From positions 682,001 to 746,000 of the forward strand of contig RHLJ01000001.1 of NCBI GenBank assembly GCA_003712055.1: a DNA stretch of 64,000 nt. The letters run 5' to 3'. Within the stretch, counting starts at the first letter, position 1. The number at the start of each line of letters is the position of its first letter. This document shows, piece by piece, positions 3,763 through 59,947 of this stretch. The translations under genes were made by a program, and so were the position numbers. Origin of the DNA: Balneola sp. GTDB taxonomy: Bacteria > Bacteroidota > Rhodothermia > Balneolales > Balneolaceae. The notes under the pieces are model-generated. The model saw only the letters and a program-made list of their open reading frames with translations. It had not been told where the DNA came from and ran no database searches.

Positions 3763-3794
3763 TGTTGCAACAATTTTATAAAATTGTTGCAACA
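3763..3794. promoter_or_regulatory. 32-bp perfect palindrome, probable antitoxin operator
   Basis: Every base of 3763-3794 pairs around a centre at 3778/3779. Each end is itself a small palindrome, TGTTGCAACA, at 3763-3772 and 3785-3794, joined by an AT-rich core. It begins 8 bp before the GTG start of the RHH-like antitoxin. Two equal palindromic boxes about two helical turns apart suit binding by two RHH dimers. Operator role is inferred from position and symmetry. Confidence 0.7.
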
Positions 3795-7253: not shown

Positions 7254-7276
7254 CCTATTCGTTGTTTGTGTTAAGG

Positions 7277-8644
7277 TTATTTTGTGGCCAGTATAAACCA
7301 CTTATTTGGAGGGAGCTCAAGATCATAGGTATTAGCACCTTCCGAATTGAACTCTCCTTCGGTTACCCCATATTTAGCATACACACTTGAAGACCACACT
7401 GGCACTGAGATTTGCTGGGGTTCTTCTGAATTATTAATCGCTACGATCACCTGATGCTCATCTTTCTTTCTGGTAAAAGCAAAGGTATTGGCAGGTGATT
7501 CAATTCGGGTAAAATCTCCTCCGTAGCTACCATTCCATAATGCTTCATTTTCAGTATTCAACTGAAGCAGGAAGCGGTAGAAATCTTCATATGCATACTC
7601 TTTCCACTCGATTTCGTCCTTTTCAAAAAACTCTAACTGCTTATCAAGAATCGACTCCTGACCATTATAGATAAGGGGCATACCCGCTACTGTTGCTGAT
7701 AATACCGCAAAGTTCTCAAAGTTCGCTCCGTACATGCCCGGATCTGTTCCATTCCATGAATTTTCATCGTGATTGCTGGTGAAGTACATGCGATAGCCAT
7801 TCGAAGGGAAACGTTCTGCATCCTCAGCGAAGAGCGCATCCAAATCCTCAAAGGTTTGTTCTCCTTTTGCAATTTCGCGGATTATATGAGCATACTGCCA
7901 CGCATAGTTCATATCAAATACTTCGATAAGTAACTCTGGCTCTCCATCTTCAGCAAGCATGAACACATCTTTTACTTTATCCAATTCAGCAATAGCATCT
8001 ACCCAAAAATCCATAGGAACCATACCAGCTACATCACATCGGTATCCATCAATATCGAATTCTCGCACCCAGTACACCAAAGCGTCAATCATTGCAGCTC
8101 GCATATCTTCATTACCGTAATTAAGATCAATTACATCGCTCCAGTCGTCTACTGGTGGCTGGAAGTTCCCTTCTTCATCTAATGTATACCAATCTTTATT
8201 CTCAGTCCATGCATTATCCCAGGATGAGTGGTTGGCTACCCAGTCTATAATTACCTTGAATCCCATTTCATGAGCCTCATCAACCAGCGCTCTGAAGTCT
8301 TCCTCAGTACCAAACTCCGGGTTAATACCTTTGTAATCTTTAATGGAATAATAGCTACCTAAGGTTCCTTTTCTATTCAACTCACCGATTGGCTGAATGG
8401 GCATTAACCAGAGAATCTTTACTCCCATATCTTTGAGCCTTGGGAGATCTTCCCTGAATGCATTGAATGTTCCTTCAGGACTGTACTGTCGAATATTTAC
8501 TTCATAAATATTCGCATTCTTACTCCATTCGGGGTGTTCAACTTTACTTAGAATAGGCCCGGTTTCTGGCTGTGGCTGTTGACAGCCCACGAAAAGAATA
8601 CCCAGGAGTGCGAGTAGAGAAAGGGAACGAGTAAAAGACTTCAT
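7277..8644 (-). CDS. GH13 alpha-amylase-type lipoprotein, short form
   Basis: This is a 455-aa protein with a lipobox LFVGC (C21). The catalytic barrel starts almost at once (SKNANIYEVNIRQYSPEGTF). Region I is IIDWVANHSSWD, region II is GYRCDVAGMVP (nucleophile Asp), region III is FMLAEDGEPEL (acid Glu) and region IV is FTSNHDENSW. A short C-terminal beta domain (FTRKKDEHQVIVAINNSEE onward) closes the protein. There is no extra binding module or sorting domain. It sits 9 bp after the 782-aa GH13 gene and 23 bp before the symporter start. It likely trims oligosaccharides for that carrier. Whether it cuts alpha-1,4 or alpha-1,6 bonds cannot be told. Confidence 0.88.
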   Translation of the reverse strand: MKSFTRSLSLLALLGILFVGCQQPQPETGPILSKVEHPEWSKNANIYEVNIRQYSPEGTFNAFREDLPRLKDMGVKILWLMPIQPIGELNRKGTLGSYYSIKDYKGINPEFGTEEDFRALVDEAHEMGFKVIIDWVANHSSWDNAWTENKDWYTLDEEGNFQPPVDDWSDVIDLNYGNEDMRAAMIDALVYWVREFDIDGYRCDVAGMVPMDFWVDAIAELDKVKDVFMLAEDGEPELLIEVFDMNYAWQYAHIIREIAKGEQTFEDLDALFAEDAERFPSNGYRMYFTSNHDENSWNGTDPGMYGANFENFAVLSATVAGMPLIYNGQESILDKQLEFFEKDEIEWKEYAYEDFYRFLLQLNTENEALWNGSYGGDFTRIESPANTFAFTRKKDEHQVIVAINNSEEPQQISVPVWSSSVYAKYGVTEGEFNSEGANTYDLELPPNKWFILATK

Positions 8645-11003: not shown

Positions 11004-13919
11004 TTATTTCAACAGAGTCATTTTTTGAGTTTGAACAACATTTCCTGCCTGAAGCCTGATGAAATACATACCGCTACTTAGTGATGAAGCATTAAAAGTA
11101 ACAGTATATAATCCAGATGTTTTCACTTCGTTTACAAGTTCGGCTACTTTTCGTCCTGTAATGTCAAAAACATCTAACTGAACAGAACCAGAGCTTGCTA
11201 CATCGTACCTGATATTGGTAGATGGGTTAAAAGGATTCGGATAGTTTTGATACAACCTGAAATCTGATGGGGTATCTCCTTCTGAAAACTCTTCCTCATT
11301 AGAAGTAGACATATTGAATTGCTTGGTCGTAAAGATCTTAAACTCACCAGGTCCCAGGCTTACTTGAGATTGTCCTCCACTTACACCAATAGAAGTAGCT
11401 CCAAAAAAGTCATACCAGGTTCCATCTTGAGTGAAATCAACATCCTGAACCGTAGAGCTCACTCCGAAATTTCCGATAATTACAACATCAGAATCAGAGT
11501 GGAACATTCTTAGGTACTTAATATCACCGGAAAGGGCATAAAATGTATCGTCTGGATTAGTAAATACCGGACTACTTCTTCTTAGGTTTATAATCTCAGA
11601 CCAAGCATCGTATAAGTCCTTCCTATCACTATCTTCGTAATAATCCCATCTTACTGGTTTATTATCTGTTCTTCCGGGAGCAAAATCGGGACAGTCAGCA
11701 GAATCATTTAGGCATTGTTCACCGTTGTCGCCATATCCATAACCTAATTCTCCAAACTGCCAGATCATTTTCGGGCCAGGCAGGGTAAAAAAGAAGGCAC
11801 CGGCCAATTCTAACCGATCAAATGCCGTAGGGAAATCTCTGACATTGTAATCACCTGGATCAGTAGCACATATATCTCCTCCACTTGGAGCATTTGCGCA
11901 TGCTCCAAAACTAATATTCTTGAACATTAACCATTGCTCATCGTGACTTTCCATAAACCCAACCAGGTGCCTGTCATTAAACCCCCTTGATTCAGAAAGT
12001 ACTCCAAATAGATTTGAGCTATACCCCATTGTAGCTTCGTTATACTCATGATTGGAATTCCCCCAAAGCATCATACCTGCATTGGCCAACACTGTTTCTT
12101 CACTGTTATCCGCAAAATGTTCAAGGATTATATAGGCATCGGGATCAATGCTCCAGATATAGGAAGAATAGTCTAACCAGATGTCTACTCTGGACTGATC
12201 ATATTGCCCCCAGGCTCCAACATCATCTGGGTTATTCGTTTGAGTGAAGCCTTTACTTAAGTCAAATCGAAATCCATCAACTTTGTATTCTTCTATCCAG
12301 TATTCCATCATTCTCTTGGAATAGTACCTGGTAGATGGACTCTCATGATTCATATCATAACCCACATTAAATGGATGTCTTGCAGCAGTATTGAAGTATG
12401 GGTTCTCAGAAGTTGGGTTCCCAAATTCTCCTTCATTCCATAGTCTAACGATCGGGTTTTGACCAAATGAATGATTAAGAACTACATCCAAAATGATAGC
12501 AATTCCACGTTTATGTGCTTCATCAACAAAGCGTTTAAAGTCTTCCGGAGTACCGTAATATTTGTCCAAAGCACCATGCAAAGCAGGGTTATATCCCCAA
12601 CTCTCATTACCATCAAATTCATTAACAGGCATAAATTCGATCGCGTTAACACCAAGATTTGATATATAATCCAGAGTGTCTAATAGGGTTTTATAATTCC
12701 TCGCGGCAATGAAATCCCGAACTAACAGCTCATAAATAACTAATTCGTCGTTTGCTGGTTTTTCGAAATCAGTTACTTCCCATTGGAACTCTTCTTTGCC
12801 TGGTGTCAAAACGCCAACTAACTGGGATGTTTTACCCGTTGGGTATTCTTTTAAATTCGGGAAGGTTTCCTCGGATATGAATTGATCGTTGAATTCATCC
12901 AAAATCAGTTCTGAATAAGGATCAGTGATCCTGATTTCACCGTCTATCAAATATTGGAAACCATATTCTTCACCCGGAGTAAGTCCCGTTATTTCTTTCC
13001 AGAAGTAAATGTTATCTGCATCAATAGAATCTCTATTCATTTGAAAATCGAGGTCTACTGTCCAGTCGTTAAAATCACCAATTACGAATGCATTGTCTTT
13101 ATAAGGAGCAAAAAGTGAAAGAGTCACAGAGGTACCATCTTCTCCATAGGTTATACCATCTCTAAGGCCGTCCGGTCTTGCCATATCTACAGACTGCGGC
13201 TCACCGATAAAGGTAAATTGTGTAGAATCTGTTATTGAATCTCCGTTATCGGAAACAGCCTCAATTCGTACTACGTTGGTTCCTTCCAATAGCTCAATTC
13301 CTAAATCCTCCAGATCTGTCACGGTCAGGATTTGCAATGAAGTATCAAAATATCCTTCAAAACTACTTGCTTCCTCTCCATTAACATAAATTTTTGAGTT
13401 GGCTTCGTTAATTGGATCATCTGTTTTCCCGGCAACTGTTGCTGAAAAACCTGGTGCAGTTAGTTGAAAAATCTCATTGTTTACTGGCTGCATCTGAAAG
13501 ATGAGCGGATGTGTTATTTCCAACCAGGAATCACCAAATCCTTCCACAGCTATATCAGGATTAAGTGGATCAGCTATCCAGTTAAACGATGATCCTGAGG
13601 CATTAAGGTGCTCGTGAAATTTATACCGGTAGCCTAGTACACCGTCGTTCGTGGAAGCGCCACCCCCTACTTCGAGACGGATAGTTTTGTACCAGTAATT
13701 TTCCGGGAAATTGAGATTCATCAAGGACACCGCAGTGGGTGAAATCACACCGTCTGTGTTAGGGCCAAAATCATTGAATTCGCCTGGTAATAACACCCTT
13801 TGCACACCATCTGGTGGGTAATATCGAAATGTTACATCTACCGAATCCTGAGCTAATGCAGGTAGTGATGCTATTACAATTACTGAAAATAAAATTGCTA
13901 ATTGTTTAAGAGATCTCAT
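11004..13919 (-). CDS. Secreted T9SS-sorted GH13 amylase with CBM48-like module
   Basis: From the ATG at 13919 the protein is 971 aa. A TTG five codons upstream is less likely. The signal peptide ends around ALAQ. N-terminal beta modules cover about residues 25-240. A CBM48-like module follows (NAFVIGDFNDWTVD), then the GH13 barrel. Region I is ILDVVLNHSFGQN, region II is GFRFDLSKGFT, region III is YIILEHFADN and region IV is GFMESHDEQW. The last 85 residues are a T9SS sorting domain starting LYQNYPNPFNPSTNI and ending QKMTLLK. It should be exported by T9SS and held on the surface or released to attack starch. It follows the LacI-type gene by 11 bp. Confidence 0.9.
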   Translation of the reverse strand: MRSLKQLAILFSVIVIASLPALAQDSVDVTFRYYPPDGVQRVLLPGEFNDFGPNTDGVISPTAVSLMNLNFPENYWYKTIRLEVGGGASTNDGVLGYRYKFHEHLNASGSSFNWIADPLNPDIAVEGFGDSWLEITHPLIFQMQPVNNEIFQLTAPGFSATVAGKTDDPINEANSKIYVNGEEASSFEGYFDTSLQILTVTDLEDLGIELLEGTNVVRIEAVSDNGDSITDSTQFTFIGEPQSVDMARPDGLRDGITYGEDGTSVTLSLFAPYKDNAFVIGDFNDWTVDLDFQMNRDSIDADNIYFWKEITGLTPGEEYGFQYLIDGEIRITDPYSELILDEFNDQFISEETFPNLKEYPTGKTSQLVGVLTPGKEEFQWEVTDFEKPANDELVIYELLVRDFIAARNYKTLLDTLDYISNLGVNAIEFMPVNEFDGNESWGYNPALHGALDKYYGTPEDFKRFVDEAHKRGIAIILDVVLNHSFGQNPIVRLWNEGEFGNPTSENPYFNTAARHPFNVGYDMNHESPSTRYYSKRMMEYWIEEYKVDGFRFDLSKGFTQTNNPDDVGAWGQYDQSRVDIWLDYSSYIWSIDPDAYIILEHFADNSEETVLANAGMMLWGNSNHEYNEATMGYSSNLFGVLSESRGFNDRHLVGFMESHDEQWLMFKNISFGACANAPSGGDICATDPGDYNVRDFPTAFDRLELAGAFFFTLPGPKMIWQFGELGYGYGDNGEQCLNDSADCPDFAPGRTDNKPVRWDYYEDSDRKDLYDAWSEIINLRRSSPVFTNPDDTFYALSGDIKYLRMFHSDSDVVIIGNFGVSSTVQDVDFTQDGTWYDFFGATSIGVSGGQSQVSLGPGEFKIFTTKQFNMSTSNEEEFSEGDTPSDFRLYQNYPNPFNPSTNIRYDVASSGSVQLDVFDITGRKVAELVNEVKTSGLYTVTFNASSLSSGMYFIRLQAGNVVQTQKMTLLK

Positions 13920-13930
13920 GATGAAATTAT

Positions 13931-14920
13931 TCAAATAGTTGAAGATCGATGGATAAGTTCTGGTGAATAGATGGTTTGAGAAATGGCTTTATCTTTGTTT
14001 TTCATTCTCTCGATGAGATTTTGAGTAGCATAGAAACCCATATCTCTCATTGGCTGACGTATGGTAGATAACCCTATGTATTCTGAAAGCTCAATATCAT
14101 CATACCCTATTATGGGGATACTTTTGCCTGTATCCTTCATGGCTTTAAGGGCGCCAACTGCCTGGATATCCGAAGCACAAAAACATGCATCTGGCATATT
14201 ATCCATTGCCAGCATTTTCGTCATAGCTTCATATCCACCACGTTCTGTAAAACCATCCCGGTATGTTGAATCTCCCGAGATGACAAGTTCTTCACAAAAT
14301 TCTAAACCACGTTCTGTTAATGCTTTACTATAACCTAGCAATCTGTCTCGAATTGGTTTTGAGGACTTTAAAGCTGAAAGCATTGCTACTCTACGAAAGC
14401 CTTTATCCAGTAAGCATTTTGTAGCTCTGTAAGCACCCTGAACATTATCGACACTAACAGAATCAAATCCTTCAAAATGTTCATCAACCAGGGTAATAGG
14501 CACATTATATTTCGTAAGCTGCTTCCATTGATCATCATTTAAATGAATGGATATAAACAAGTAACCTTCGGCCCAACGGCGTTTTAAGACATGCTCAACC
14601 TGATCAAATAGATGATCATCAGCAGTTACATTAAAAATGTTGAGTTCGTAGCCTAATTCGCCAAGCTTATCCTGAATCCCCCCCAACACTTCCATAAAAA
14701 AGTAGTTTGAGATAACAGGAACCACCACCATAATGGTGTTGCTTTTTTTACTGGCTAAACCCTGTGCATAAGCTTGTGGGTGATACCCAACTTTTTCGGC
14801 AACGGCCATCACTTTTTGCCGGGTAGATTCAGATACATTACTACTATGGTTAAATACCCTGGACACAGTAGCTATGCTAACTCCGGCTTGTTCTGCAATA
14901 TCATATATAGTTGATGCCAC
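13931..14920 (-). CDS. LacI-family transcriptional regulator of the starch locus
   Basis: This is a 329-aa protein. A LacI helix-turn-helix fills residues about 4-23 (IYDIAEQAGVSIATVSRVFN). The hinge helix AQGLASKKS carries the leucine that inserts at the central CG of LacI operators. Residues about 60-329 form a periplasmic-binding-protein-like effector domain, ending in the typical DDIELSEYIGLSTIRQP stretch. It lies inside the starch gene train, between the surface-protein genes and the enzyme genes. Two copies of a CG-centred palindrome at 27289-27302 and 59921-59934 are its likely operators. The ligand is probably a maltodextrin or maltose. Whether it represses or activates is not shown by sequence, though the operator placement favours repression. 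Confidence 0.9.
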   Translation of the reverse strand: MASTIYDIAEQAGVSIATVSRVFNHSSNVSESTRQKVMAVAEKVGYHPQAYAQGLASKKSNTIMVVVPVISNYFFMEVLGGIQDKLGELGYELNIFNVTADDHLFDQVEHVLKRRWAEGYLFISIHLNDDQWKQLTKYNVPITLVDEHFEGFDSVSVDNVQGAYRATKCLLDKGFRRVAMLSALKSSKPIRDRLLGYSKALTERGLEFCEELVISGDSTYRDGFTERGGYEAMTKMLAMDNMPDACFCASDIQAVGALKAMKDTGKSIPIIGYDDIELSEYIGLSTIRQPMRDMGFYATQNLIERMKNKDKAISQTIYSPELIHRSSTI

Positions 14921-14992: not shown

Positions 14993-17671
14993 TTATTTGA
15001 TAAGTGTCATTCTCTTGTTGCTTACAAAGCTTCCAGCTTCAAGGCGATAAATGTATACACCTGAAGAAAGAGCCTGAGCATCAAAAGCAACGGTATGAAC
15101 ACCGCTGGTCATTGATCTACCATCAATGAGCGTAGCCACTCTCTGGCCTAATAGGTTGTAAACAGTAAGGTTTACATCAGCTGCATTAGGCAGGTTGAAA
15201 CTAATATTAGTAGTTGGGTTGAATGGATTCGGATAGTTTTGCTCTAATCTGAATGTAGCAACCGACTCTTCAGTTTCGTTGTTTGTAGAGATCTCAGAGT
15301 AATCTGGTGGAAGATCCCAAGGCAGATCACTTTCAGTCCAGGTAAGTTGTGGCATTGCATATGTTGCAGGCCAGCTTACATCTGGAAGGTCATCGAAATC
15401 ATCTCCATCTTCAACCACGATTGGCTGTACGTACTGGTAATATCTTCTACCAGCATCGAAGCCACCACCGTTAGCAAATAAGCTTCCAGTCTCGGAAGTA
15501 GGCTCACCATAGGCGATTCTAAATCCAATGTGGTTTAACGTTGGAAGAACAAGAGTAAGGTCTAGTTCATAAACCATATCTCCATCTTCGTCAGTAAATC
15601 TTAGTCTTTCTCTTTCTTCATCACTAGCAGTGATAAAGTTCTCGCCGTTATCACCAGGAACAGTAATGTCGTTGGTTAGGGCAAAGAAAGGAGTATCAAC
15701 AAATAGGAATACTGAATCAGACTCAGGTAGGAATGGTTGTGCAACATTTTCAGTAGCAGCACTCATGTCCACACTGAAAGTCACAGTAATTGAACCACCG
15801 TCAACATTATTAGCAGTCATTAGTGCCTGAGCAGCAACACCGTTGTATGATTCAACTCTGTTTTCTTGCTCAGTAGCATTAACAATGTTAAATGCACGGT
15901 CAGCACCACCTGTTACACCAGGCTCTTCCCAACCAGACTGATCATGAGTTATACCTGGCAAATACAAGTCACTTTCTTCGTCATCTCTGGCTGCGTCCCA
16001 TTTGATATAGTACTTGTATTTTACTTCGGCCCCATCAGCACCTGTAAATGGAATGTTTTGTCCTTCATAGTTACCAGATACATCGCTAAATGACATCTGA
16101 TTGTCTTCACTCCATCCATTAAAAGTACCACGTACAAACACGGTATCGAATGAAGCATTGAAGAATCCAAGACCTTCAAGAATACCAACGTTAACTTCGA
16201 AGTTAAGTTCGGTATTAACAATTACAGCGTTAGTTGGAGGTATACCACTAAAGAACTTCCAGAAAGTAGTAGAATCGCTACTTGGAGGAGCAATAACAGT
16301 ATTGTTACCATCTTCCCAGGTAACTGTTCCATCTTCAGCTTCCAATACAAATTTGTATTCGATGTTTCCATCAAGATTAGCAAGGGAATCTTTTTGCATT
16401 CTGTGGTATCCACCATAGAATAAATTGTCTCCTGCACCACCTAGATTTTCAAGGTAAGTTCCTGAAGAACTCCAGTCATCTGGGTTATCGAAGAAGTTAG
16501 GAGTACCACGCATTCCAACCTGATCGGTTTCAGGATCGAAATCTCCGGTTTGAACCTGTGCACCAACATTTACACGGAAGTAGATAGTTACACTATCGTC
16601 ATCAGAAGTAAATGGAGCTTCACGAGTTTCATACCACTGCATAGGTACCACAGTATCGGCTGCAGCATTCCAGGGAAGTTCGAAGTTGTTATTATCTCCG
16701 CTTTCCCATCCTTGCTCGCTTCCGTTAATTAATGGAGTACTTCCATCAACTCCGGCCCAGAATTTGTAATTGATTCCGTCACCAGCTGCCATATCGAAAC
16801 TTACTGTCCAATAGTCGCCACCATCGTTATCAGCAACCAAGTCAGTGCTGTTGTTCCAGTCGATTGTTTGTCCAAGGTATGGGTTTCCAGCACCTGTAGG
16901 ACCATAAGTTCCACCGAACACTCCTATGTAACCATCTTCCATCAGGGTATCCTGAAGCGTAGAGGTATTCACATTAAATGTAACCTGTACAATATTTGCT
17001 ACATCGGTACTGTCGAAAGGCCAGATTTGAACATCATCGTTATTTCGAGCCATTACACCAATCAGGTTGAATCTTTCGGTTGGTGCAGGAGCTCCATCAA
17101 AGTATGATTCATCTCTGTCGATTCTTAGTACAAAAGCACTATCACCAACAACAACGTCTACATTTACTCCAGAGCTTGTTTGTGCATCTTCAGGCCATTC
17201 TTCGCCATCAGCTAAGGTTACATCTGAAATTTTAACAATCATACCTTGATACTCTGAACCAGTTAATAGGTCTTCAGGAGCAATCCATACTGGTGCGGGA
17301 CGAGTTGTACCTGCACCTAAAATGATTACGGTATCTGGTAAGATTTGGATTTGATCGCTGAAAGAGTCAATCGTACCTGTGATAGATACGGTATCCCCTT
17401 GCGACCATCCTGTGAATGAAGCGTGATCCATAGCTTGAGATCCACCTACATCATCATAGAATACGTTAATCCCTGCCGTAGAATCTTGTAGAAAGAATTG
17501 TCCGTTGCTGAATCCATAGTCGGGTGTGTTGATCACACCTTCGATGGTAACGGTATCTCCTTCCATAACTCTAGCGTCACGAATTTTCGTTACATCTTGT
17601 GCCGATGCTGCTGAAGCAAATAGAAAACTAAATACTGCTAGCGACATCAACAACTTTGTAGCTTTAGTCAT
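14993..17671 (-). CDS. Multi-module T9SS-sorted surface protein, candidate starch-binding protein
   Basis: This is an 892-aa secreted protein with a signal peptide ending SAASAQ (about residue 25). Residues about 28-215 look like an OB-fold domain (VMEGDTVTIEGVINTPDYGF, FFLQDSTAGINVF). Four beta-rich modules of about 110-140 residues follow. Each opens with a VTF/VTIYFxVN-type strand and contains motifs like YKFWAG, IEYKFVLE, VRGTFNGWS or YKYYIKWD, as in CBM20/CBM48-like or SusE/SusF-like starch modules. The last 86 residues are a T9SS sorting domain (LEQNYPNPFNPTTNISF to KRMTLIK). No catalytic motif is seen. By context it may take the place of SusD/E/F in gripping starch. I do not recognise a named family. 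Confidence 0.72.
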   Translation of the reverse strand: MTKATKLLMSLAVFSFLFASAASAQDVTKIRDARVMEGDTVTIEGVINTPDYGFSNGQFFLQDSTAGINVFYDDVGGSQAMDHASFTGWSQGDTVSITGTIDSFSDQIQILPDTVIILGAGTTRPAPVWIAPEDLLTGSEYQGMIVKISDVTLADGEEWPEDAQTSSGVNVDVVVGDSAFVLRIDRDESYFDGAPAPTERFNLIGVMARNNDDVQIWPFDSTDVANIVQVTFNVNTSTLQDTLMEDGYIGVFGGTYGPTGAGNPYLGQTIDWNNSTDLVADNDGGDYWTVSFDMAAGDGINYKFWAGVDGSTPLINGSEQGWESGDNNNFELPWNAAADTVVPMQWYETREAPFTSDDDSVTIYFRVNVGAQVQTGDFDPETDQVGMRGTPNFFDNPDDWSSSGTYLENLGGAGDNLFYGGYHRMQKDSLANLDGNIEYKFVLEAEDGTVTWEDGNNTVIAPPSSDSTTFWKFFSGIPPTNAVIVNTELNFEVNVGILEGLGFFNASFDTVFVRGTFNGWSEDNQMSFSDVSGNYEGQNIPFTGADGAEVKYKYYIKWDAARDDEESDLYLPGITHDQSGWEEPGVTGGADRAFNIVNATEQENRVESYNGVAAQALMTANNVDGGSITVTFSVDMSAATENVAQPFLPESDSVFLFVDTPFFALTNDITVPGDNGENFITASDEERERLRFTDEDGDMVYELDLTLVLPTLNHIGFRIAYGEPTSETGSLFANGGGFDAGRRYYQYVQPIVVEDGDDFDDLPDVSWPATYAMPQLTWTESDLPWDLPPDYSEISTNNETEESVATFRLEQNYPNPFNPTTNISFNLPNAADVNLTVYNLLGQRVATLIDGRSMTSGVHTVAFDAQALSSGVYIYRLEAGSFVSNKRMTLIK

Positions 17672-17708: not shown

Positions 17709-18737
17709 TTAAAAGAAAATTTGAACACTTAGTTTGTTTACATCCCCAAGGTATCGGTAACCATGGTAGGTATAATTAAAGCCAAGTTTTAGTGATTCAC
17801 TTACTTCGTATTTGAATCCAAGACCTGCGTTAAATTTCTCCGTTGCATCATCTTGACCCAAATATGGAAGGCCTCCGCGTAGTTGGATTTGATCTTTCAT
17901 CAAACCAAGTTCTCCACCTACACTTAAACTTTGAACATTATTTGTTGGATTGTTTCCATCAACTGAAAGTGTGAGCCTTAAATCCTCTGAAGTTACTGCA
18001 TCCCACGCTAATCCTACTTTAAGCATCAACGGGAGGTCAAATGAATCGGTTGATAAATTTGCATCTGGCTCATAATTCCCATCCTGAGTCTCGTCAGGAT
18101 CAGAACTAATAATAAGGTCGTTGCCCTGCATCTGAAGCTTTGATCCAAAATTTGTAATACTAACACCAAGTCTTACTCCGTAAAAGGGTGTATCGTACAT
18201 AGTCCCAACATCAAATGCGACTGTTGAAGCGGTGCTATTCGCAATTTTTTCATACACAACTTTTGCTGTTCCACCTATTGTAAATTGAGGTAGCAAATAT
18301 TGAGCATAAGAAACACCGAAAGAAACGGAATAAGCGTCAAAGGTTCTTCCTGTAAGGCCTTGAGCTTCGGCAGTGGTTTCCTCGAATTCCCCATAATTCA
18401 TTGCAAGAACATGCACTCCGGCAACCCCCGCATTTTTGGTAGGAATCGCTACTCCCAAATAAGTATGGTTGATATCAAGGTACCAGTCAGTGAATTCAAC
18501 CAATACCTCATTTCCATCAACATCAGCGAGCCCAGCCGGATTTAAGACCATGGAAGATGGATCATTTACGGTTGAAGCATATGCACTCATTGCAGATGCT
18601 CTAGCCCCTACTGGAACTCTAAGAAATTCAGCTGCCGTGGTACCAACTTTACTTAGTTGTGCCTCTACATCTGCACTTATTAGCAGACTGACAATTGAAA
18701 AAAGAAGTATCGATGTTCTTTTCATATTCATAATCAT
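17709..18737 (-). CDS. PorV/PorQ-family outer-membrane beta-barrel protein
   Basis: This is a 342-aa protein with a signal peptide, then the family hallmark TTAAEFLRVPVGARASAMS and NDPSSMVLNPAGLADVDGNEV. The rest is alternating beta strands and ends in an aromatic-rich C-terminal strand (KLSVQIFF), as in outer-membrane barrels. PorV is the T9SS part that shuttles cargo to the surface attachment complex, and PorQ/FadL-like relatives share the fold. The gene overlaps the upstream 1272-aa protein gene as ATGA, so translation is coupled. Two more ATG codons lie at 18731 and 18725. A PorV-like gene between T9SS clients suggests a dedicated escort or assembly helper for this starch system. That role is inference. 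Confidence 0.82.
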   Translation of the reverse strand: MIMNMKRTSILLFSIVSLLISADVEAQLSKVGTTAAEFLRVPVGARASAMSAYASTVNDPSSMVLNPAGLADVDGNEVLVEFTDWYLDINHTYLGVAIPTKNAGVAGVHVLAMNYGEFEETTAEAQGLTGRTFDAYSVSFGVSYAQYLLPQFTIGGTAKVVYEKIANSTASTVAFDVGTMYDTPFYGVRLGVSITNFGSKLQMQGNDLIISSDPDETQDGNYEPDANLSTDSFDLPLMLKVGLAWDAVTSEDLRLTLSVDGNNPTNNVQSLSVGGELGLMKDQIQLRGGLPYLGQDDATEKFNAGLGFKYEVSESLKLGFNYTYHGYRYLGDVNKLSVQIFF

Positions 18738-21700
18738 TTTATAACCGCAAATTTTCCAACCTTTTCACCTATTCCCGGAGCTTCGATATGATATAAATAG
18801 ATACCATAAGAGATTTCCAGGTTGTCTTTGGTAAGCATGTTCCAGATATATGATCCACCATACTGGCTGGTTAAATCACTTTCTTGTATATCAATTTCTC
18901 TGACAAGAACTCCCGATGCTGTAAAAATTCGAAGCTTAGAAGGCGCCGGTATTCCTGTAAAATGCAGCTCCCTGTTTTGCTGTAGATTTGTTGGAGTAGT
19001 AGAAGCTTCAAATACATTAGTGACTTTGTACGGATTAGGAATCACTAAAATATCATCCAACTCAGATCGAGCAGTATCAGCATTTACCTGAGGAATATTA
19101 TTTTCATCAAACCTAAACACAAAACGGTCGAATTGAGTAAATGGCTTGGTAGTAAATAGAGCTAGGGTATCTCCTGGTTGAGGATGAACAGAAACAAGTG
19201 CTCCATCTACATTCTGAGCAGACATACTGATTCTAAACGTTGTGGTATCTTCAATTCCACGGTAGTCCTCGATGAAATAAATTATATCTGAACACCTTCC
19301 GCTAAACCCTGAAACTGCGGATAATTGCCCCGGATCGGGGAAGGTATAGTTATCAGGTGGGAAAAATGTTGGATTACAACGTTGCTGTGCAGAAGCAGGA
19401 TTATTTAGGTCAAAAAACGCGTAGTTAATCTCTTCTTCAGTAAAGGTATTGAACACCTTGAAGTTTGTTTGTATTGACGGCAGGAGCTCAAAAGTACCAG
19501 GTGATACCTCAATATTCGCTTCAATAGACTGACCAAAACCAACATTATCTCCTATAATGATCTCATAATCCGAAACTTTTGGAGCTCCCTGTATTCCAAA
19601 TACAAATGGGTGAGGAGGTAAGGCATGATCAAATGACCAGCCAGATAGGTCCTCATTCAACTGGAATTCATCGATGTTTTCAACCGTAATCGTGAAGCCT
19701 TCTGTATTTGGATTGTTTTGACCGTTGAAATCTGTTGATCTGGAAATCAATGTATCGGGAGTACCAGAGGTAATATTTCTTAGAGAGAAGTTCTTTGTCT
19801 TGATCGTGTCAGGATCGCTACCACCACTTACCAATGTATCCTCGAAAACAACGTCATAGAGGTTATCTGCTAGTAATGCTCCTGGATCAATAATCTCTAC
19901 TTGCACAGTACCACCTGGTGCCCCAGAAGCGAGACCTGCCAGCGGATTTTCAGGGCTGATGTAACCTGCAACTTCTCTGGAAGGACGTACTTCAACAACG
20001 TTTTGTCCAAAAGTAACAGAACCGTCAGGATTCAATGAAATTTGTACCGGAGATTCAGAAGGACTGATACCTGCACTTTCAAAACCTCTATCATAAGCTG
20101 TAACCGCGTAATAATACTTACGACCGTTAATTACCTCAGTGTCTTCGAAAAAGCGGGTTAAGCCGGTATCACTTCCAAGATTAAACTGAGTTCCATTTTC
20201 AGAAACCGGATGGAAACCTGAGATACCATTATTTTTATCAATAATAGCTATTGGTTGAAGATAAAGAGGAGCTCCAAGTCCATCGGTAATAGTGAAAATA
20301 TCCTGGAAGGAAACATCCGTAGTTCTGTAAATCTTATAGCCTTCGAAGTCAAAACCATCTCCTGTTTGCAGATTGATATATCTGTCGAAAGACTGTTCAG
20401 AACTTGCATCCCAGTATAGTGTCACTTTACCATCAGAAGGTACTGCAGATAAAATTGGTGGAGTTGGTGCTACTGCAAACTGGTAATCCGCTTCATAAGC
20501 AGTAGTTGCATTTTCGAGATTAAGATTTACTCGATCTCTGTCAGCCTGAGCACTTTGATTAAGCTGAGCTGCTGTAATTGCTACCGCAAATCGCTCTGTT
20601 GCACCTTGCGCCAATGGGAATAAACCTGAAGAAACAAAAATATCCGAATCAGTTCCTACATCTTCCTGGAAAGTGCCCGGAATCAGATAGGAAAGCCAGA
20701 TATTAGCGTCTTGATCAACCTGTAAAGCCCCAGCATCAAAAATAGTAACCCTGGATACTCCAAGGAGATCTGTTTCACTTACATCTGTTTTATCTATGCT
20801 GGATTCACCTGGGAATGAAGTACCGGCACCAGATGTAGGGAAGCCATCACCCTGTCCTACGCTAAATGTCTCAGGATCACCCTGAATACCAACGTCATCA
20901 ATTAGCTCATTCCAGTCGTTATCATTATCGAAGAAATCGTCTCTTGCTTCATCAATCATAGGAGCACTAGTAGCAAAGTTTTGCAGACGTCCTCCATATT
21001 GATCATTAACGATGCTAGCAAAAGGAGCGTCATTGAGTACTCGATCTCTTATGGTTTGACTAGGTACAATCAATCCGCTCTGTAAGGTATCCCCTACTTC
21101 GAAATACATATAATTGATAAAGCGAACTGCTTTAGTTACCGACACATTATTGATGAAGGTTGTCTTCGTAAGGTGATTCGGAACGTTCTCATCAATTAGT
21201 CCATCGAAGTCATTATCAAGTCCATCAATATGGATACCAAAATTTTCATCCGTTTGGGGTAAGATATCCTCAAGAACATCAAAACTGGCTGCCCCTTCGA
21301 AATCGTATGTTATACCCTGAGTTACAAATGGACTTCCATCATAGGTTGCAACAACGCGGCTGTTATCATCCTGAATCAGTACAATCTTATCACCAATATT
21401 AATCGTTCTTGGATCAAAATCGGTTGCCTGGAATGGAGGTATAACTGAATCTCTTAAAGCCTCATAAGCATAAAAGCCTCCTGAAGAGGTCAGAAGAGGA
21501 GTAAATAAATCCTGATTATCAGAATCGTAAAAACTTTGTTGCGGAGCTGGTACAGGTAGCGGATTATAGAAATCACTGTCCCCATCATTATCAATACCAT
21601 CGATGGCGTTTCCTGGAGTTTCAAGGAATTTTAGACCCATCTCTCCAATTAATCCACCATCAAAAGCATTACCTCCACTTTCTCTGTCTGTATCTGTGAG

Positions 21701-22552
21701 GTAGGCGATGGAACGTATATTATCAAAGATCGGCTCATCCGTCGGCCCACCTCCTGCAACGAAATCGGCAATCCAAAGGCCAAAGGCCATTCTTGGGTAA
21801 TCGAAGCTACCATCGTTTTTAATTTCAAAAAGATTAAAGTGAGTAGCATTTACCAGTGTTTGAGACCAAGCCAAAATTCTTGTATCAAGAATAATTCCCA
21901 AACCTCCACGAGTTGGATCTGTCTCATCTGGTTGAAATCTGCTTAGGTAACGAACATAGGTATCATCGCCTGCTTTGTAATAAAACTCCACGTCGGCGTT
22001 AAACTGATCTCGCCCGAAAAATCCATTCCAGGAACCAGCCCATCCATCACCACCATCTTCAAACTTATCCGGCCAGCTATCAGGCCATGTATTTCCTAAT
22101 GGAGAGGTAGGACCACGGTCACTTCGTGCAATTTCATCCGAATCGTCTCTAACATATCCTACAATTGGGTTTAAAGACCAGTTGGTTCTACCATCACGGC
22201 TGGTTTTATACGCAGCTACATCCACTATCGGAAAAACATCGTCTTCATCAGCAGTAGATTGATCTGGTACTTCTGTACCAAACATTACACTCATGAAATA
22301 CATGTACTCACGATTCGTATTTCTTGGGTACTCGAACAGAAGCTCATCAAGACTTGTGTTGTTTCTTCTTCCTGCGTGCCCTGTGTTGTGATAGGTAGCT
22401 CTTAATAAGTTCCCATCCATAATGGATGTTTTACGTCTCTCGAATGACGAACGCTCTTCACTAGGCACATAGTCCTGAGCGGTTAGTTGATGGGCTCCTA
22501 AAAGAAGAACAAATACGGTTAAAAAACTTTTTCTCATAAATTTATTATTCAT
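18734..22552 (-). CDS. Large secreted surface protein with Fn3-like and Asp-rich motifs, partner of the TonB receptor
   Basis: This is a 1272-aa protein with a signal peptide (FLTVFVLLLGAHQLTAQ). The first 300 residues are unlike any family I know. Asp-rich, MopE-like putative metal loops occur at about 319-328 (GIDNDGDSDF), 444-455 (GLDNDFDGLIDE) and 538-553 (FFDNDNDWNELIDD). An Fn3-like domain starts near SAVPSDGKVTLYWDASSE. The C-terminus has IPNPYKV and then SKLRIFTASGVLVREIDI to GKFAVIK, a FlgD/T9SS-like tail that differs from the YPNPFNPST version. It begins 3 bp after the TonB receptor stop. Proteins of this type often follow CarboxypepD_reg receptors in this phylum, so it may be the surface partner of the receptor in place of SusD. 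Confidence 0.65.
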   Translation of the reverse strand: MNNKFMRKSFLTVFVLLLGAHQLTAQDYVPSEERSSFERRKTSIMDGNLLRATYHNTGHAGRRNNTSLDELLFEYPRNTNREYMYFMSVMFGTEVPDQSTADEDDVFPIVDVAAYKTSRDGRTNWSLNPIVGYVRDDSDEIARSDRGPTSPLGNTWPDSWPDKFEDGGDGWAGSWNGFFGRDQFNADVEFYYKAGDDTYVRYLSRFQPDETDPTRGGLGIILDTRILAWSQTLVNATHFNLFEIKNDGSFDYPRMAFGLWIADFVAGGGPTDEPIFDNIRSIAYLTDTDRESGGNAFDGGLIGEMGLKFLETPGNAIDGIDNDGDSDFYNPLPVPAPQQSFYDSDNQDLFTPLLTSSGGFYAYEALRDSVIPPFQATDFDPRTINIGDKIVLIQDDNSRVVATYDGSPFVTQGITYDFEGAASFDVLEDILPQTDENFGIHIDGLDNDFDGLIDENVPNHLTKTTFINNVSVTKAVRFINYMYFEVGDTLQSGLIVPSQTIRDRVLNDAPFASIVNDQYGGRLQNFATSAPMIDEARDDFFDNDNDWNELIDDVGIQGDPETFSVGQGDGFPTSGAGTSFPGESSIDKTDVSETDLLGVSRVTIFDAGALQVDQDANIWLSYLIPGTFQEDVGTDSDIFVSSGLFPLAQGATERFAVAITAAQLNQSAQADRDRVNLNLENATTAYEADYQFAVAPTPPILSAVPSDGKVTLYWDASSEQSFDRYINLQTGDGFDFEGYKIYRTTDVSFQDIFTITDGLGAPLYLQPIAIIDKNNGISGFHPVSENGTQFNLGSDTGLTRFFEDTEVINGRKYYYAVTAYDRGFESAGISPSESPVQISLNPDGSVTFGQNVVEVRPSREVAGYISPENPLAGLASGAPGGTVQVEIIDPGALLADNLYDVVFEDTLVSGGSDPDTIKTKNFSLRNITSGTPDTLISRSTDFNGQNNPNTEGFTITVENIDEFQLNEDLSGWSFDHALPPHPFVFGIQGAPKVSDYEIIIGDNVGFGQSIEANIEVSPGTFELLPSIQTNFKVFNTFTEEEINYAFFDLNNPASAQQRCNPTFFPPDNYTFPDPGQLSAVSGFSGRCSDIIYFIEDYRGIEDTTTFRISMSAQNVDGALVSVHPQPGDTLALFTTKPFTQFDRFVFRFDENNIPQVNADTARSELDDILVIPNPYKVTNVFEASTTPTNLQQNRELHFTGIPAPSKLRIFTASGVLVREIDIQESDLTSQYGGSYIWNMLTKDNLEISYGIYLYHIEAPGIGEKVGKFAVIK

Positions 22553-22555
22553 GGC

Positions 22556-25555
22556 TTAAAAAGATAGCTGTAGTCCAAATTGAACTCTTCTCGGTTCAGC
22601 ATAGAAAGTTGGGTCGTTATAAAAATCAGGGTGCGCATCTTCAATGATACTTGCCGGAAGTGGCCTTGTAGGCAGACCGGAATCGGCATATACACCATTC
22701 ACAATTTTTGTATCAAGCAGGTTATATACATTTAGGAAAACCTGCATTGTGTTATTCCCGATCTGGAAATTCTTGTACGCATTCAAGTCAATAGTAAACC
22801 TGGATGGTAGACGAGCAGTATTTCTAAGATTTCTGTTCGAAGCAACCTCACCAACAGTAACACCCGGGATGTTTGTTGCGGGTGTATAAGGCGTTCCTGA
22901 ATTAAATCTGGCTAACAGGTTTGCTCCCCAATTATTCCCGGTATAAAACATAGAACCATTTAAGATATGCGTTCTATCCCAATCAAGCGGTTGTACAATC
23001 TTTGTGAGTGACACTTCTTGGCTTGTTGAATCAATAACTCCACCCTGTCCTCTAATGTTAAAGTATTCAGCGTTAGGGTCAGAGTTACTACCCTCCACTA
23101 CCCCAAAAGTATAATCTAAACCAAAGTTAAATCGTGAACTTACGAATTGATTGAAAGCGAAAGTCATACCGAGAGACTTGGAATAATCACGGTTGAAGTA
23201 AATACCATAATTAATGGATTCACTTCCTGTAACCTGAGGGCGACTGGAAACATAGTCCCGAGTATCTTTATAGTATCCTGTCCATTCAATAGCTGTTCCC
23301 TCAAAGATTTCTTGTTTAAGACCTAATTCGTACTGAATCGAACGTTCTGGTTTAAGATCCGGATTACCAAAAAGTCCTTGATCTCCCCCACCCTGAGTAA
23401 GGAAAATCTGGCTATTCGTATATAATCTTTCATAGGAAGGCATCTGAAAGAAATAACCATAGGAGAAGTAGATTACCCCTCCATCATTAATAGGATAAGC
23501 CACACCAATACGCGGACTAAGCTGATATTTAACAGAAGCGTCTTTCCACCAATATTGAGCTCTGTCTTCAACTGTTAGAGAAGGCTCATTATCATCTTGC
23601 TGTCCGTTTCCGTTTAAATCTGTGTACTGATTTTCTGTTTTAGTAGGGAAAAAGATATCTGGATCTTCCGGGTCAGCAGGAATCTCTGTATTTGGATCGA
23701 AGTAATCGAATCGCAAACCAACATTAATGATGAGGTTATCATATTCGATCTTATCCTGGATGTATGCACTGAGGTTAATCGGGTTTTCAGAATACTTCTG
23801 ATAGCCAGGTGTATTGACCTCTGGGAAGCCAAGTTCAAGGCAAGGATATTGATTATCTACATCGGCACAAACCACTCTTAATTCATCCGGGGTGCCTTCA
23901 GGAAAGTTTACTCCTTCATCAATTAATGGAATCAAGCTTACGCTTTCAAATTTGATCTCATCAAACTGAGCACTTACACCCGCCTTGATAAAGTGGTGGT
24001 TATTTAGCTGGCTTGATAGTTCTGCCTTTGCAATATAGCTATTGGTAGATCTGAAGAACCGACTATTATTAGTTCCATATGTAGCAAATTGCCCAGCATT
24101 AGGAATTTGGTTCCCGTATAAAATATTTGGTGTACCAAAAAGAGGATCTGAAAGGTTATCATAGTTGAAATACCTTGGATCCCAGGGATCTTCATACAAA
24201 TAACTATTGAACTCATTATAGCGGTTTGCAATGTTAACAGTAAGGAAGGTATAAGCAGATGGAGTTATAGTCGTCTTAAAGTTTATCGAATAGTTATCTC
24301 TGAAATTATTGTTCTGACCAGTAGGAACAAACCTGCTGTTATACCCATACCCACCACTTTCTTCAGTAGCAATAGACCCGATCAGGTTGAACTTTAGCGT
24401 GTTCGAAAATTTGTATTCGAGATTACCCTGAAAACTCAATGTTTCAAATTTAGTCATATCAACTAATGAGCTATCTCGTGTTCCATCATCACGGATTTCA
24501 AGGAGATCAACCCCCTCAACAGTAACTGTATCAATTGAATACCAGGGCAGGTTAAGATCTACTCTTTCATTATATAATGTTCGGTAAGTATCCAGATCCG
24601 TATCTAAAGGTACACGATCAACATATTTACCATGTGATGAATACAGGTTTCGTCCTGTTAGGTACCCTTCATTCAGGAAACTTCGCGTAGTTGCAAAGAA
24701 GGTAAGCTTGTCTTTTATAATAGGTCCTGATACAGAAGCACTGAAATTATACATTCGTAAAGGATTGAAACTGTCTAGGCTAGTACCAATACCATCGTAT
24801 AGTTCAGGTTTGTTAGTAGCTAAATATCCACCACTCCAGGCACGAACAGAAGCATCGTACTTATTACCTCCGGATTTGGTAACAACATTCACAACACCAG
24901 AGAGAGCCTGTCCATGTTCTGCATTAAATGAACCTGAAATTACCTGAAGCTCCTGTATGGATTCGTTTTCAAGTCTGATACCATTGCTACCATCATAATC
25001 ATCGGTAACCCTAATCCCATCAACGACATAAGAAACTTCTGATGTTCTTCCACCCCTTATATGAATCCCACCATCGTTGCCTACATTTACCCCAGCCTGA
25101 AGCTGAATTACATCGGTGACTTCCTGTACAGGTAATTTTTCAATTTCATCACTGCTTACCCGGGCTTCAGAACTGGTAATATCCTTAATTACAGTTTGAC
25201 GTTCGGCTACAACAACCAGCTCTTCCCCTTCGAATGATTCAGGAGCTAGCTCAAAATCCTGTGTAGTTGTTAAATCAGTTCTTACAATTACTTCCTGTAC
25301 AACCACTGTTGCGTAACCGATATATCTCGCTTCGATGATATATGTACCCGGAGCAACATTTAACATCAAATAATTACCATCAATATCAGTAATTGCCCCT
25401 TTTGTTGTACCCTGAATACCAACTGTTGCGCCAATAAGGGGTTCTTTTGTGTCTGCATCTATTAGTTTGCCCTGGATTTTTCCTGATTGGGCGTATGCAT
25501 CAAAGCAAATTAACCCGAATATTAAAATGAACGCTGATTTAAGAATCTTCTTCAT
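22556..25555 (-). CDS. TonB-dependent receptor with CarboxypepD_reg domain (SusC-like/Oar-like)
   Basis: This is a 999-aa outer-membrane receptor. After a signal peptide (to about residue 22) comes a carboxypeptidase-regulatory-like domain (about 25-110, GKIQGKLIDADTKEPLIGAT). Next is a plug (about 130-230) with HIRGGRTSEVSYVVDGIRV and ALSGVVNVVTKSGG. A 22-strand-type barrel follows, ending in an aromatic final strand (RRVQFGLQLSF). It should import oligosaccharides using TonB energy. It lies 9 bp after the PPIase lipoprotein gene and 3 bp before the 1272-aa protein gene. No SusD gene is nearby, so it is not a standard SusCD pair. The plug and first domain resemble Oar-like receptors as much as SusC. 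Confidence 0.9.
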   Translation of the reverse strand: MKKILKSAFILIFGLICFDAYAQSGKIQGKLIDADTKEPLIGATVGIQGTTKGAITDIDGNYLMLNVAPGTYIIEARYIGYATVVVQEVIVRTDLTTTQDFELAPESFEGEELVVVAERQTVIKDITSSEARVSSDEIEKLPVQEVTDVIQLQAGVNVGNDGGIHIRGGRTSEVSYVVDGIRVTDDYDGSNGIRLENESIQELQVISGSFNAEHGQALSGVVNVVTKSGGNKYDASVRAWSGGYLATNKPELYDGIGTSLDSFNPLRMYNFSASVSGPIIKDKLTFFATTRSFLNEGYLTGRNLYSSHGKYVDRVPLDTDLDTYRTLYNERVDLNLPWYSIDTVTVEGVDLLEIRDDGTRDSSLVDMTKFETLSFQGNLEYKFSNTLKFNLIGSIATEESGGYGYNSRFVPTGQNNNFRDNYSINFKTTITPSAYTFLTVNIANRYNEFNSYLYEDPWDPRYFNYDNLSDPLFGTPNILYGNQIPNAGQFATYGTNNSRFFRSTNSYIAKAELSSQLNNHHFIKAGVSAQFDEIKFESVSLIPLIDEGVNFPEGTPDELRVVCADVDNQYPCLELGFPEVNTPGYQKYSENPINLSAYIQDKIEYDNLIINVGLRFDYFDPNTEIPADPEDPDIFFPTKTENQYTDLNGNGQQDDNEPSLTVEDRAQYWWKDASVKYQLSPRIGVAYPINDGGVIYFSYGYFFQMPSYERLYTNSQIFLTQGGGDQGLFGNPDLKPERSIQYELGLKQEIFEGTAIEWTGYYKDTRDYVSSRPQVTGSESINYGIYFNRDYSKSLGMTFAFNQFVSSRFNFGLDYTFGVVEGSNSDPNAEYFNIRGQGGVIDSTSQEVSLTKIVQPLDWDRTHILNGSMFYTGNNWGANLLARFNSGTPYTPATNIPGVTVGEVASNRNLRNTARLPSRFTIDLNAYKNFQIGNNTMQVFLNVYNLLDTKIVNGVYADSGLPTRPLPASIIEDAHPDFYNDPTFYAEPRRVQFGLQLSF

Positions 25556-25564
25556 AAACGTTGA

Positions 25565-27262
25565 TCAAATTTGGATAATAAGTTCTTCAAGTTTTTTTAA
25601 ATCGATAAAAGCGTTGTGCTTTTTCTTTACGTCAGAAATGGTTTCAGACCTAAGCTCTTTTAGTTTCTTCTTTGTGAGGAAATCGTCAACATAAGATGAC
25701 GCTTCAGAAAAAATCAGTGCTTTAGATTCTACCCTATAGAGGCATTTATAAATATGGAATTCATTTTCCTGGTACTGAATCACTTCCGAAATATCTCCTA
25801 CTTCCAATTTAGAAAGTTGAAGCTCCAGGTAGCCAAACTCTTTGATACTAGCCAACCCAAGTTCACCATTAGTAAATCGATCTTCATTATTAACGGTGTA
25901 TTTATCTACCACTTCTGAGAAATCTGTCCCTGAGAGAATCAAATTTCTGACTCGCTCAGCTTCTTCTTTGCTCCTTACAACTACCCTGGCAAAATTGGCT
26001 TCTAAAGGCTTTATGAAATTGCTTCGATTGGCTAAGAATTCATTATACAGCTCAGCAGGAGTATTTGAAATTTGATCACGAAGAGCGTTTTCAGCTTCCC
26101 TTGATAAATAATGATAATATGTCTCATTAATTGACTCTGAAACTAATTCTTGTTCTGCTAAACCGTTCGAAATTGATTCCTTATATAAATAGTTTCGGTA
26201 AGCAAGCCCCGTAAAAAACTCTTTGAAACTCGATTCATCTACTACGAATCCAACTACCTGGTCTGAACTTATAGTTAGCTCTTCAATAAAATCAGAGCTG
26301 GTAAATTCAATATCCCCATAAGTAGCCAATACCCTTGAACCCCTTGGTAAATTGCTAACAAACTCGATATCCCTATTTCTAAAGCCAATAAGATTTTGAT
26401 TTACATTTTCCCATAATTCATCCACCTGTAAATCAAACTGTAAGCCATTAATAAATTGATCTAAATGCTCGCGGGTTTTGAGTTCTCTTTTCTTCTTGAG
26501 CACATAAGTACCCAGCTGGGCTCTCTTCTGGTTGAACTCATACTCAGTGATGATGGGTTTACTTACTCGATCGGTCACTTTAATTAAACTATAGCCCTGA
26601 ACAGTTTTTACTGGTTCAGAAACCTCTCCGATTTGTAACCCGAATGCTGAGTTTTCAAAAGCTATATCTAACTCATCGGTTGTAAACCATCCAATATCTC
26701 CCCCGTTTTCAGAGAGATACTCATTCCTGAATGCTTCTTTGGCCAGATCATCAAAAGTTTCCCCATTATCCAATCTATCCTTGAATTCCAGAATCCCTGC
26801 TTCAGTCTGAGCATAAATATGAGACGCACGGATTTGCGTATTAAATCTCAAAAAATATTCTTGTAATTCCTGATCAGATACCTCGATTCCACTCAGAATT
26901 ATCTGGTTAAGGTATTCTTCATTCAGAACACGTCGCTCAATTCTCTGCTTTTCGACAATAGCTTCATCAGACTTGTGGATTTCTAAATCCTCTGCATATG
27001 TTGCCAATACGTAGGTATCGAATTCCGCATCAAGAATTGCCTTTTTTGTTGAGATATCTGGATTAAGCACTTGACCTGTTCTGTAATAGTATTCTTTGTA
27101 AGCATTTTCAAAATGGTCAATATTGATATCTAACTCATTGATAGATGCTAACAGATCTTCTGTTTCCTGAACTTGAGATTGGCAATTAGCTAAATACAAC
27201 AAGGCGACAATTAGGCATGTCGCTCGCAAGACTTTGTTAGTTTTGAAAAGCTGTATTTGCAT
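25565..27262 (-). CDS. Twin-parvulin peptidyl-prolyl isomerase lipoprotein (SurA/PpiC-like)
   Basis: From the ATG at 27262 the protein is 565 aa. A GTG at 27280 is in frame but overlaps the -7 promoter element. A lipobox LLYLANC lies near residue 28. After an alpha-helical SurA-like N-domain come a canonical parvulin domain (ASHIYAQTEAGILEFKDRL through LSENGGDIGWF) and a second, more divergent one near the C-terminus (NFARVVVRSKEEAERVRN through FTNGELGLASIKEFG). It should be a periplasmic chaperone for outer-membrane proteins. It is the first gene of the starch train, directly behind the LacI-type operator. A dedicated folding factor for the receptor and PorV-like barrels encoded after it is a fair inference. 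Confidence 0.85.
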   Translation of the reverse strand: MQIQLFKTNKVLRATCLIVALLYLANCQSQVQETEDLLASINELDINIDHFENAYKEYYYRTGQVLNPDISTKKAILDAEFDTYVLATYAEDLEIHKSDEAIVEKQRIERRVLNEEYLNQIILSGIEVSDQELQEYFLRFNTQIRASHIYAQTEAGILEFKDRLDNGETFDDLAKEAFRNEYLSENGGDIGWFTTDELDIAFENSAFGLQIGEVSEPVKTVQGYSLIKVTDRVSKPIITEYEFNQKRAQLGTYVLKKKRELKTREHLDQFINGLQFDLQVDELWENVNQNLIGFRNRDIEFVSNLPRGSRVLATYGDIEFTSSDFIEELTISSDQVVGFVVDESSFKEFFTGLAYRNYLYKESISNGLAEQELVSESINETYYHYLSREAENALRDQISNTPAELYNEFLANRSNFIKPLEANFARVVVRSKEEAERVRNLILSGTDFSEVVDKYTVNNEDRFTNGELGLASIKEFGYLELQLSKLEVGDISEVIQYQENEFHIYKCLYRVESKALIFSEASSYVDDFLTKKKLKELRSETISDVKKKHNAFIDLKKLEELIIQI

Positions 27263-27279: not shown

Positions 27280-27311
27280 CAAAAATAATGAAAGCGCTTA
27301 CATTTTTTCAA
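27280..27311 (-). promoter_or_regulatory. Promoter of the starch gene train with embedded LacI-type operator
   Basis: On the minus strand TTG (27309-27311) and TATTTTTG (27280-27287) match the Bacteroidota -33 TTG and -7 TAnnTTTG elements, 21 bp apart. The operator TGTAAGCGCTTTCA (27289-27302) fills the space between them. The ATG at 27262 would then have a short leader of about 12 bases. A regulator bound here would block sigma-factor contact. The start point is predicted, not measured. Confidence 0.65.
27289..27302. promoter_or_regulatory. LacI-type operator, copy 1
   Basis: The minus strand reads TGTAAGCGCTTTCA, a CG-centred palindrome with one mismatched pair, of the form bound by LacI/CcpA-type proteins. 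A 19-bp block including it (27288-27306) is identical to 59917-59935 in front of the GH57 gene, in the same orientation to the gene it precedes. Confidence 0.75.
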
Positions 27312-27471: not shown

Positions 27472-27499
27472 AATGTAAGGGGTTACATTTCTAATGTAA
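27472..27499. repeat. Three alternating heptamers AATGTAA/TTACATT
   Basis: AATGTAA (27472-27478), TTACATT (27483-27489) and AATGTAA (27493-27499) can form either of two exclusive hairpins. The direct copies read AATGTAAG, matching the left half of the LacI-type operator (AATGTAAGC). They lie about 170 bp upstream of the main operator, in the otherwise AT-rich 277-bp gap between ispG and the PPIase gene. They may be auxiliary half-sites. Role unproven. Confidence 0.35.
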
Positions 27500-59832: not shown

Positions 59833-59920
59833 GCAATAGTTTTTTGGAGGAAGATAGCCTATTGAGGGCTTTAAATCTCATCAATTCGAAACTGGAAAAA
59901 GATCAATTTTTTATCTAAAA

Positions 59921-59934
59921 TGTAAGCGCTTTCA
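59921..59934. promoter_or_regulatory. LacI-type operator, copy 2 (GH57 gene)
   Basis: TGTAAGCGCTTTCA on the plus strand, ending 13 bases before the GH57 start codon. The surrounding 59917-59935 (19 bp) equals 27288-27306 read on the opposite strand. It lies between the divergent hydrolase and GH57 genes. It is likely bound by the LacI-type protein encoded at 13931-14920. Confidence 0.75.
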
Positions 59935-59947
59935 TAATTATATTTTT

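Follow-up and report, generated by a model that had tools for sequence, protein, structure and literature searches.

A predicted LacI repressor and operator connecting scattered alpha-glucan loci in Balneola

The starch gene train and the GH57 locus

The window, that is the whole 64-kb stretch of Balneola sp. DNA analysed here, carries a run of minus-strand genes, referred to below as the train, which extends from an ATG at 27262 to position 3966 with intergenic gaps of at most 73 bp, and an unlinked gene for a secreted GH57 enzyme. The genes and the end of the train are as follows.

25565..27262, minus strand: PPIC-type peptidyl-prolyl isomerase, heading the train (Pfam Rotamase, 2e-21)
22556..25555, minus strand: TonB-dependent receptor with carboxypeptidase-regulatory domain (Pfam, NCBIfam)
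18734..22552, minus strand: 1272-aa protein that matched nothing in Pfam or NCBIfam profile searches
17709..18737, minus strand: PorV/PorQ-family outer-membrane protein (NF033709, 171.9 bits, cut-off 90)
14993..17671, minus strand: secreted protein, SusE-like (CBM20-like stretch, DUF5689 stretch, type IX tail)
13931..14920, minus strand: 329-aa regulator of the LacI family, the proposed repressor
11004..13934, minus strand: GH13 enzyme with type IX tail
8654..11002, minus strand: GH13 enzyme
7277..8644, minus strand: GH13 enzyme
5742..7301, minus strand: MFS sugar transporter
3966..5729, minus strand: GH13 enzyme, last gene of the train (nearest models cyclomaltodextrinase/maltodextrin glucosidase, below cut-off)
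3763..3794, no strand assigned: perfect 32-bp palindrome downstream of the train, terminator-like
59948..63037, plus strand: secreted GH57 glycoside hydrolase with type IX tail (Pfam Glyco_hydro_57, 5.1e-20; Por_Secre_tail)

The start of the isomerase gene was read as the ATG at 27262 rather than the GTG at 27280. The train contains a TonB receptor and, in the Pfam and NCBIfam searches, no match to the SusD family, so that the SusC/SusD pair of a Sus-type PUL is not found in it. The TonB receptor, the 1272-aa protein and the PorV-family protein (17709-25555, minus strand) travel together in most relatives, and a different SusC-type head occupies the same place after ispG at two loci (L057 and L062).

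A repeated 19-mer and its palindromic core

Two exact copies of the 19-mer AAAATGTAAGCGCTTTCAT stand before these two groups of genes.

27288..27306, minus strand: predicted operator at the head of the train, core at 27289-27302, exact repeat
59917..59935, plus strand: second copy of the predicted operator, core at 59921-59934, exact repeat

The core lies 26 bp upstream of the isomerase ATG in the first case and 13 bp upstream of the GH57 ATG in the second. With up to three mismatches, AAAATGTAAGCGCTTTCAT was matched three times in the window (one of the three being the palindromic reverse reading of the first) against 0.01 times in shuffled windows. In a k-mer census of the 64 kb it was the only dispersed 19-mer repeat, the remaining repeated 19-mers all coming from the hairpin at 3763-3794. 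When 42 sites are aligned by gene direction they share an even palindrome with a central CG, TG.AAGCG.TT.CA, with A/T-rich flanks; an even, CG-centred palindrome is a general property of LacI-family operators (PMC4052901). As judged from these sequences, it is the 14-bp core TGTAAGCGCTTTCA, and not the full 19-mer, that is conserved and putatively functional. The preliminary description of this DNA was right about the positions and strands of both copies, about the LacI-type, CG-centred palindrome and about the LacI-family gene inside the train. Its statement that there is no third copy holds within the window and fails for the genome, where a third exact 14-bp core stands at C2:71324 (G000); the flank there differs, which makes it a third copy of the core and not of the 19-mer.

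Sites elsewhere in the genome and in relatives

The third core lies 34 bp upstream of a gene for a secreted GH13 alpha-amylase, and a copy with one mismatch, the slightly different TGCAAGCGCTTTCA, is found at C5:145699 between a TonB receptor gene, at a distance of 130 bp, and a divergent GDSL lipase gene. Matching with two mismatches returned 42 matches (both strands counted), most of them within coding regions; the strict palindrome TGHAAGCGCTTDCA was used in its place, with the reversed pattern as control. All four matches to this palindrome in the genome are intergenic and precede the train, the GH57 gene, the alpha-amylase gene and the TonB receptor gene; the many matches before unrelated genes that would have spoken against a shared regulon are not seen with the strict motif. 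The general LacI palindrome TGNAANCGNTTNCA adds a site, TGTAAGCGGTTACA, at C1:750010, 4 kb beyond the window and 70 bp upstream of the gene for a 732-aa type IX-secreted protein (C1:747741-749939), a homolog of which (47% identical, in a Balneola genome) is preceded by TGAAAGCGCTTTCA (L168).

Among 21 relatives, sampled for owning an ortholog of the train LacI gene, TGHAAGCGCTTDCA yielded 40 sites in 19 genomes against 3 control matches. Of these sites 38 lie upstream of glucan or TonB-receptor genes: 21 at PUL heads, where the core is kept in 21 of the 21 compared, four before alpha-amylase orthologs, one before a GH57 ortholog, three before homologs of the secreted protein, three before GH13 homologs, five before a TonB receptor of the C5 type and one before a SusE-like gene. 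The two exceptions concern a biotin carboxylase (L153) and a WD40 protein on a short contig (L176). The GH57 gene has an ortholog in only one of the 21 relatives (G005; 71% identical), in a search dominated by type IX tails, and TGTAAGCGCTTACA is retained upstream of it (L149). In other Balneolaceae genera, sites occur upstream of a HAD hydrolase gene adjoining a GH65 gene (L229), of GH97 genes (L238, L239) and of SusC-type receptor genes (L230, L234, L237). One relative (G021) has the LacI ortholog and no strict TGHAAGCGCTTDCA site; two tandem copies of TGAAAACGCTTACA, 25 bp apart (L072:5741-5779), stand there between a TonB receptor gene and the LacI gene, and the LacI recognition region of this genome also differs (DVSIATVSRVIN).

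The candidate regulator

The regulator encoded in the train matches the LacI family in Pfam (LacI, PF00356, 8.6e-21 at residues 4-49; Peripla_BP_3, PF13377, 1.3e-25) and shares 84-87% identity with proteins from two Balneolaceae MAGs. Orthologs were called at an E-value of at most 1e-100 in 129 genomes of the order. The 97 genomes with an ortholog hold 203 strict sites (6 control matches), the 32 without one hold 18 (5 control matches), and a strict site is present in 11 of these 32; the co-occurrence of site and ortholog over the 129 genomes has a Fisher p of 2.8e-11, a value that ignores kinship. In five genomes the site lies 38-39 bp upstream of the LacI ortholog itself (L231, L232, L233, L235 and L236); autoregulation is common in the LacI family (PMC4052901). 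With 38 of 40 sites before glucan or TonB-receptor genes, the co-occurrence and the site before LacI in five genomes, the pattern is that of a local LacI sugar regulon. We infer that the train-encoded LacI protein has the 19-mer as its operator and would bind it, respond to an inducer and repress both the train and unlinked glucan loci, a reading to which we assign a probability of about 0.87.

Could the sites instead belong to another LacI paralog, or to a global CcpA-like regulator, with the train LacI as a bystander? The genome holds six LacI-family genes, a CG-centred palindrome is a generic feature of the family and the core fits the CcpA cre consensus. The closest solved structures to the train protein are likewise those of CcpA (1zvv and 1rzr, aligned over residues 4-323). 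In an NCBIfam scan it gave only matches below cut-off, the best being the RbsR and CcpA models, and it scores 195.7 bits against the CcpA equivalog model, whose cut-off is 442.35. Yet it is the ortholog of the train LacI that the site tracks over the 129 genomes and precedes in five of them. Among the orthologs the recognition helix GVSIATVSRVFN is near-invariant, as is the hinge, and both differ in the paralogs of this genome. These paralogs sit in purine, SusC/D, nucleoside and other contexts, and their neighbourhoods are free of the motif. CcpA acts globally, through many degenerate sites; a count of one to eight strict sites in each genome argues for a local and not a global regulon. Binding by a paralog or a CcpA-like protein is on these grounds improbable, and the train LacI remains the preferred regulator. 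Beside one of the other LacI genes a different palindrome, TTGTTAACGATAACAA (L038:7180), lies between that gene and a SusC/SusD-like pair, and it is likely the operator of that paralog.

Operator and promoter geometry

Promoters of the Bacteroidota follow a consensus with TTG near -33 and TAnnTTTG at -7 (PMC6847099), and two candidate elements of this kind bracket the operator at the head of the train.

27309..27311, minus strand: TTG, predicted -33 element for the train
27280..27287, minus strand: predicted -7 element TATTTTTG, fitting TAnnTTTG and abutting the operator

The predicted train promoter, TTG (27311-27309), N21 and TATTTTTG (27287-27280), is a full match to the consensus. More generally, TTG lies 4-6 bp upstream of the core and TA 0-2 bp downstream, which gives a frame of TTG-N19..21-TA. 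This frame surrounds the operator at 21 of 21 PUL heads and at all five LacI promoters, against shuffled means of 0.28 and 0.11, and is found at none of the 16 satellite sites, the GH57 site included. An operator inside the -33/-7 spacer is consistent with repression by exclusion of the polymerase. Since the satellites have no such frame, the occlusion model is proposed for PUL heads and LacI promoters.

The satellites, where another mode may operate, are also what can be said for the train LacI activating these promoters or regulating them in both directions. However, the operator fills the spacer at PUL heads and LacI promoters and would exclude the polymerase, and known LacI-family relatives with operators so placed are repressors; activation or dual regulation is improbable, and repression is the reading retained. 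That the repeat is due to chance or to a shared non-regulatory element, as a few further dispersed 17- and 18-mers repeated in the window might suggest, can be regarded as already refuted by the comparative data, given the near-absence of matches in shuffles and the conservation before glucan genes across genomes with a control near zero.

A predicted alpha-glucan regulon

That a single alpha-glucan regulon, with LacI as its predicted repressor, takes in both the train and the GH57 gene is supported by the strict sites before glucan genes, their conservation in relatives, the co-occurrence with LacI and the promoter frame. The preliminary description had joined the train and the lone amylase, and this link stands, as part of a regulon that appears larger than two loci: the operator would connect at least four scattered starch loci and probably a fifth, with the C5 TonB receptor belonging to the regulon less surely.

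In the proposed mechanism, a LacI dimer would occupy TGTAAGCGCTTTCA when alpha-glucan is lacking, and at the head of the train the bound repressor would fill the spacer between TTG and TATTTTTG and so keep RNA polymerase out. The inducer, judging from the target genes (GH13, GH57, GH65, GH97), is probably maltose or a short maltodextrin; imported through the uptake genes of the train itself, it would release the repressor. Release would switch on the train, including the LacI gene within it, and the unlinked loci, namely the GH57 gene and the secreted GH13 alpha-amylase on C2, probably also the type IX-secreted protein behind the C1:750010 site and, with less certainty, the C5 TonB receptor. 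The Balneolales would then have a testable alpha-glucan regulon with a regulator, an operator and a list of targets, and a polysaccharide locus that can run on a simple cytoplasmic repressor instead of a SusR-type activator. The motif may also serve in finding unlinked starch genes, such as that of the 732-aa secreted protein.

Comparison with known regulators

LacI-type maltodextrin repressors are described in the paper on the RegPrecise collection (PMC4052901), and MalR of S. pneumoniae is cited in PMC2329647. The system resembles MalR and related LacI-family maltose/maltodextrin repressors in having its regulator inside the controlled cluster, an even CG-centred palindrome and maltodextrin target genes. 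It differs from pneumococcal MalR in the operator core, TGTAAGCGCTTWCA here as opposed to CGCAAACGTTTTCC/CGCAAACGTTTGCG for MalR, in the TonB/type IX character of the polysaccharide locus and in the position of the operator inside a Bacteroidota-type promoter. CcpA has nearly the same recognition helix and hinge and a cre consensus that the core fits; here, by contrast, the sites number one to eight per genome, counted with the strict palindrome, and nearly all precede glucan genes. The likeness to Bacteroides SusR, a membrane-bound activator of starch genes with directly repeated sites (PMC3878776), lies in the control of starch uptake and degradation genes, whereas the regulator proposed here is a LacI protein of the cytoplasm whose palindromic site falls within the promoter spacer. 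The groups named in the RegPrecise LacI study (PMC4052901) do not include the Balneolales, and no starch regulator for this order was found in the literature searched, to which most subscription journals do not belong. This kind of sugar control is already known; the LacI/operator regulon predicted here is a well-supported further case of it, in an order outside the literature found.

A second palindrome and further motifs

A further palindrome lies between ispG and the train operator.

27474..27487, minus strand: second palindrome TGTAACCCCTTACA (TGTAAN4TTACA, no central CG), upstream of the operator by 185 bp

In related genera, TGTAAN4TTACA is found 94-218 bp upstream of the operator at most of the ispG-PUL junctions examined, with intervening sequence that is not conserved. 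Outside the window it is present at L141, L143, L144, L147, L148, L151, L154, L155, L162, L163 and L173. The genome has three copies, the same frequency as that of the control pattern, and one of them is the C1:750010 site. The palindrome is absent from the satellite sites and LacI promoters examined and, in 27 of 28 other genomes examined, from the region after ispG, six of these having a canonical operator there. Reading it only as a terminator hairpin of ispG was given up, since in other genera ispG is without the palindrome and since at L154 the palindrome keeps its distance to the operator and not to ispG. Looping between palindrome and operator finds no support: the spacings (94, 146, 185-187, 198-199 and 214-218 bp) are out of helical phase, and the 329-aa protein leaves no room for a tetramerisation tail of the kind that E. 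coli LacI carries in addition. An auxiliary operator, the site of another regulator and an RNA hairpin are each possible. We would suggest, tentatively and with considerable doubt, that in the Balneolales a LacI repressor has the role of the Bacteroides SusR by way of a fixed cassette (TTG, 4-6 bp, operator, 0-2 bp, TA), behind which the uptake genes are exchanged, the set of TonB receptor, 1272-aa protein and PorV-type protein in most genomes and a different SusC-type head after ispG in others; TGTAAN4TTACA, some 185 bp upstream, might then be an auxiliary element of the cassette.

Two other motifs of this genome, AAAAAGCGCTTACA upstream of acyl-CoA dehydrogenase and thiolase genes and TGGAASCGSTTCCA upstream of acyl-CoA genes, were excluded from the site list, each resembling the site of another regulator. 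AAAAAGCGCTTACA (L012, L013 and L020), found before genes for a thiolase, an acyl-CoA dehydrogenase and a 181-aa protein, is half of the starch operator with a run of A in place of the TG arm. TGGAASCGSTTCCA forms four palindromes (L086, L087, L088 and L089), the copies at L086 and L087 lying directly upstream of acyl-CoA mutase-like and acyl-CoA dehydrogenase genes, and these sites possibly mark a separate fatty-acid regulon.
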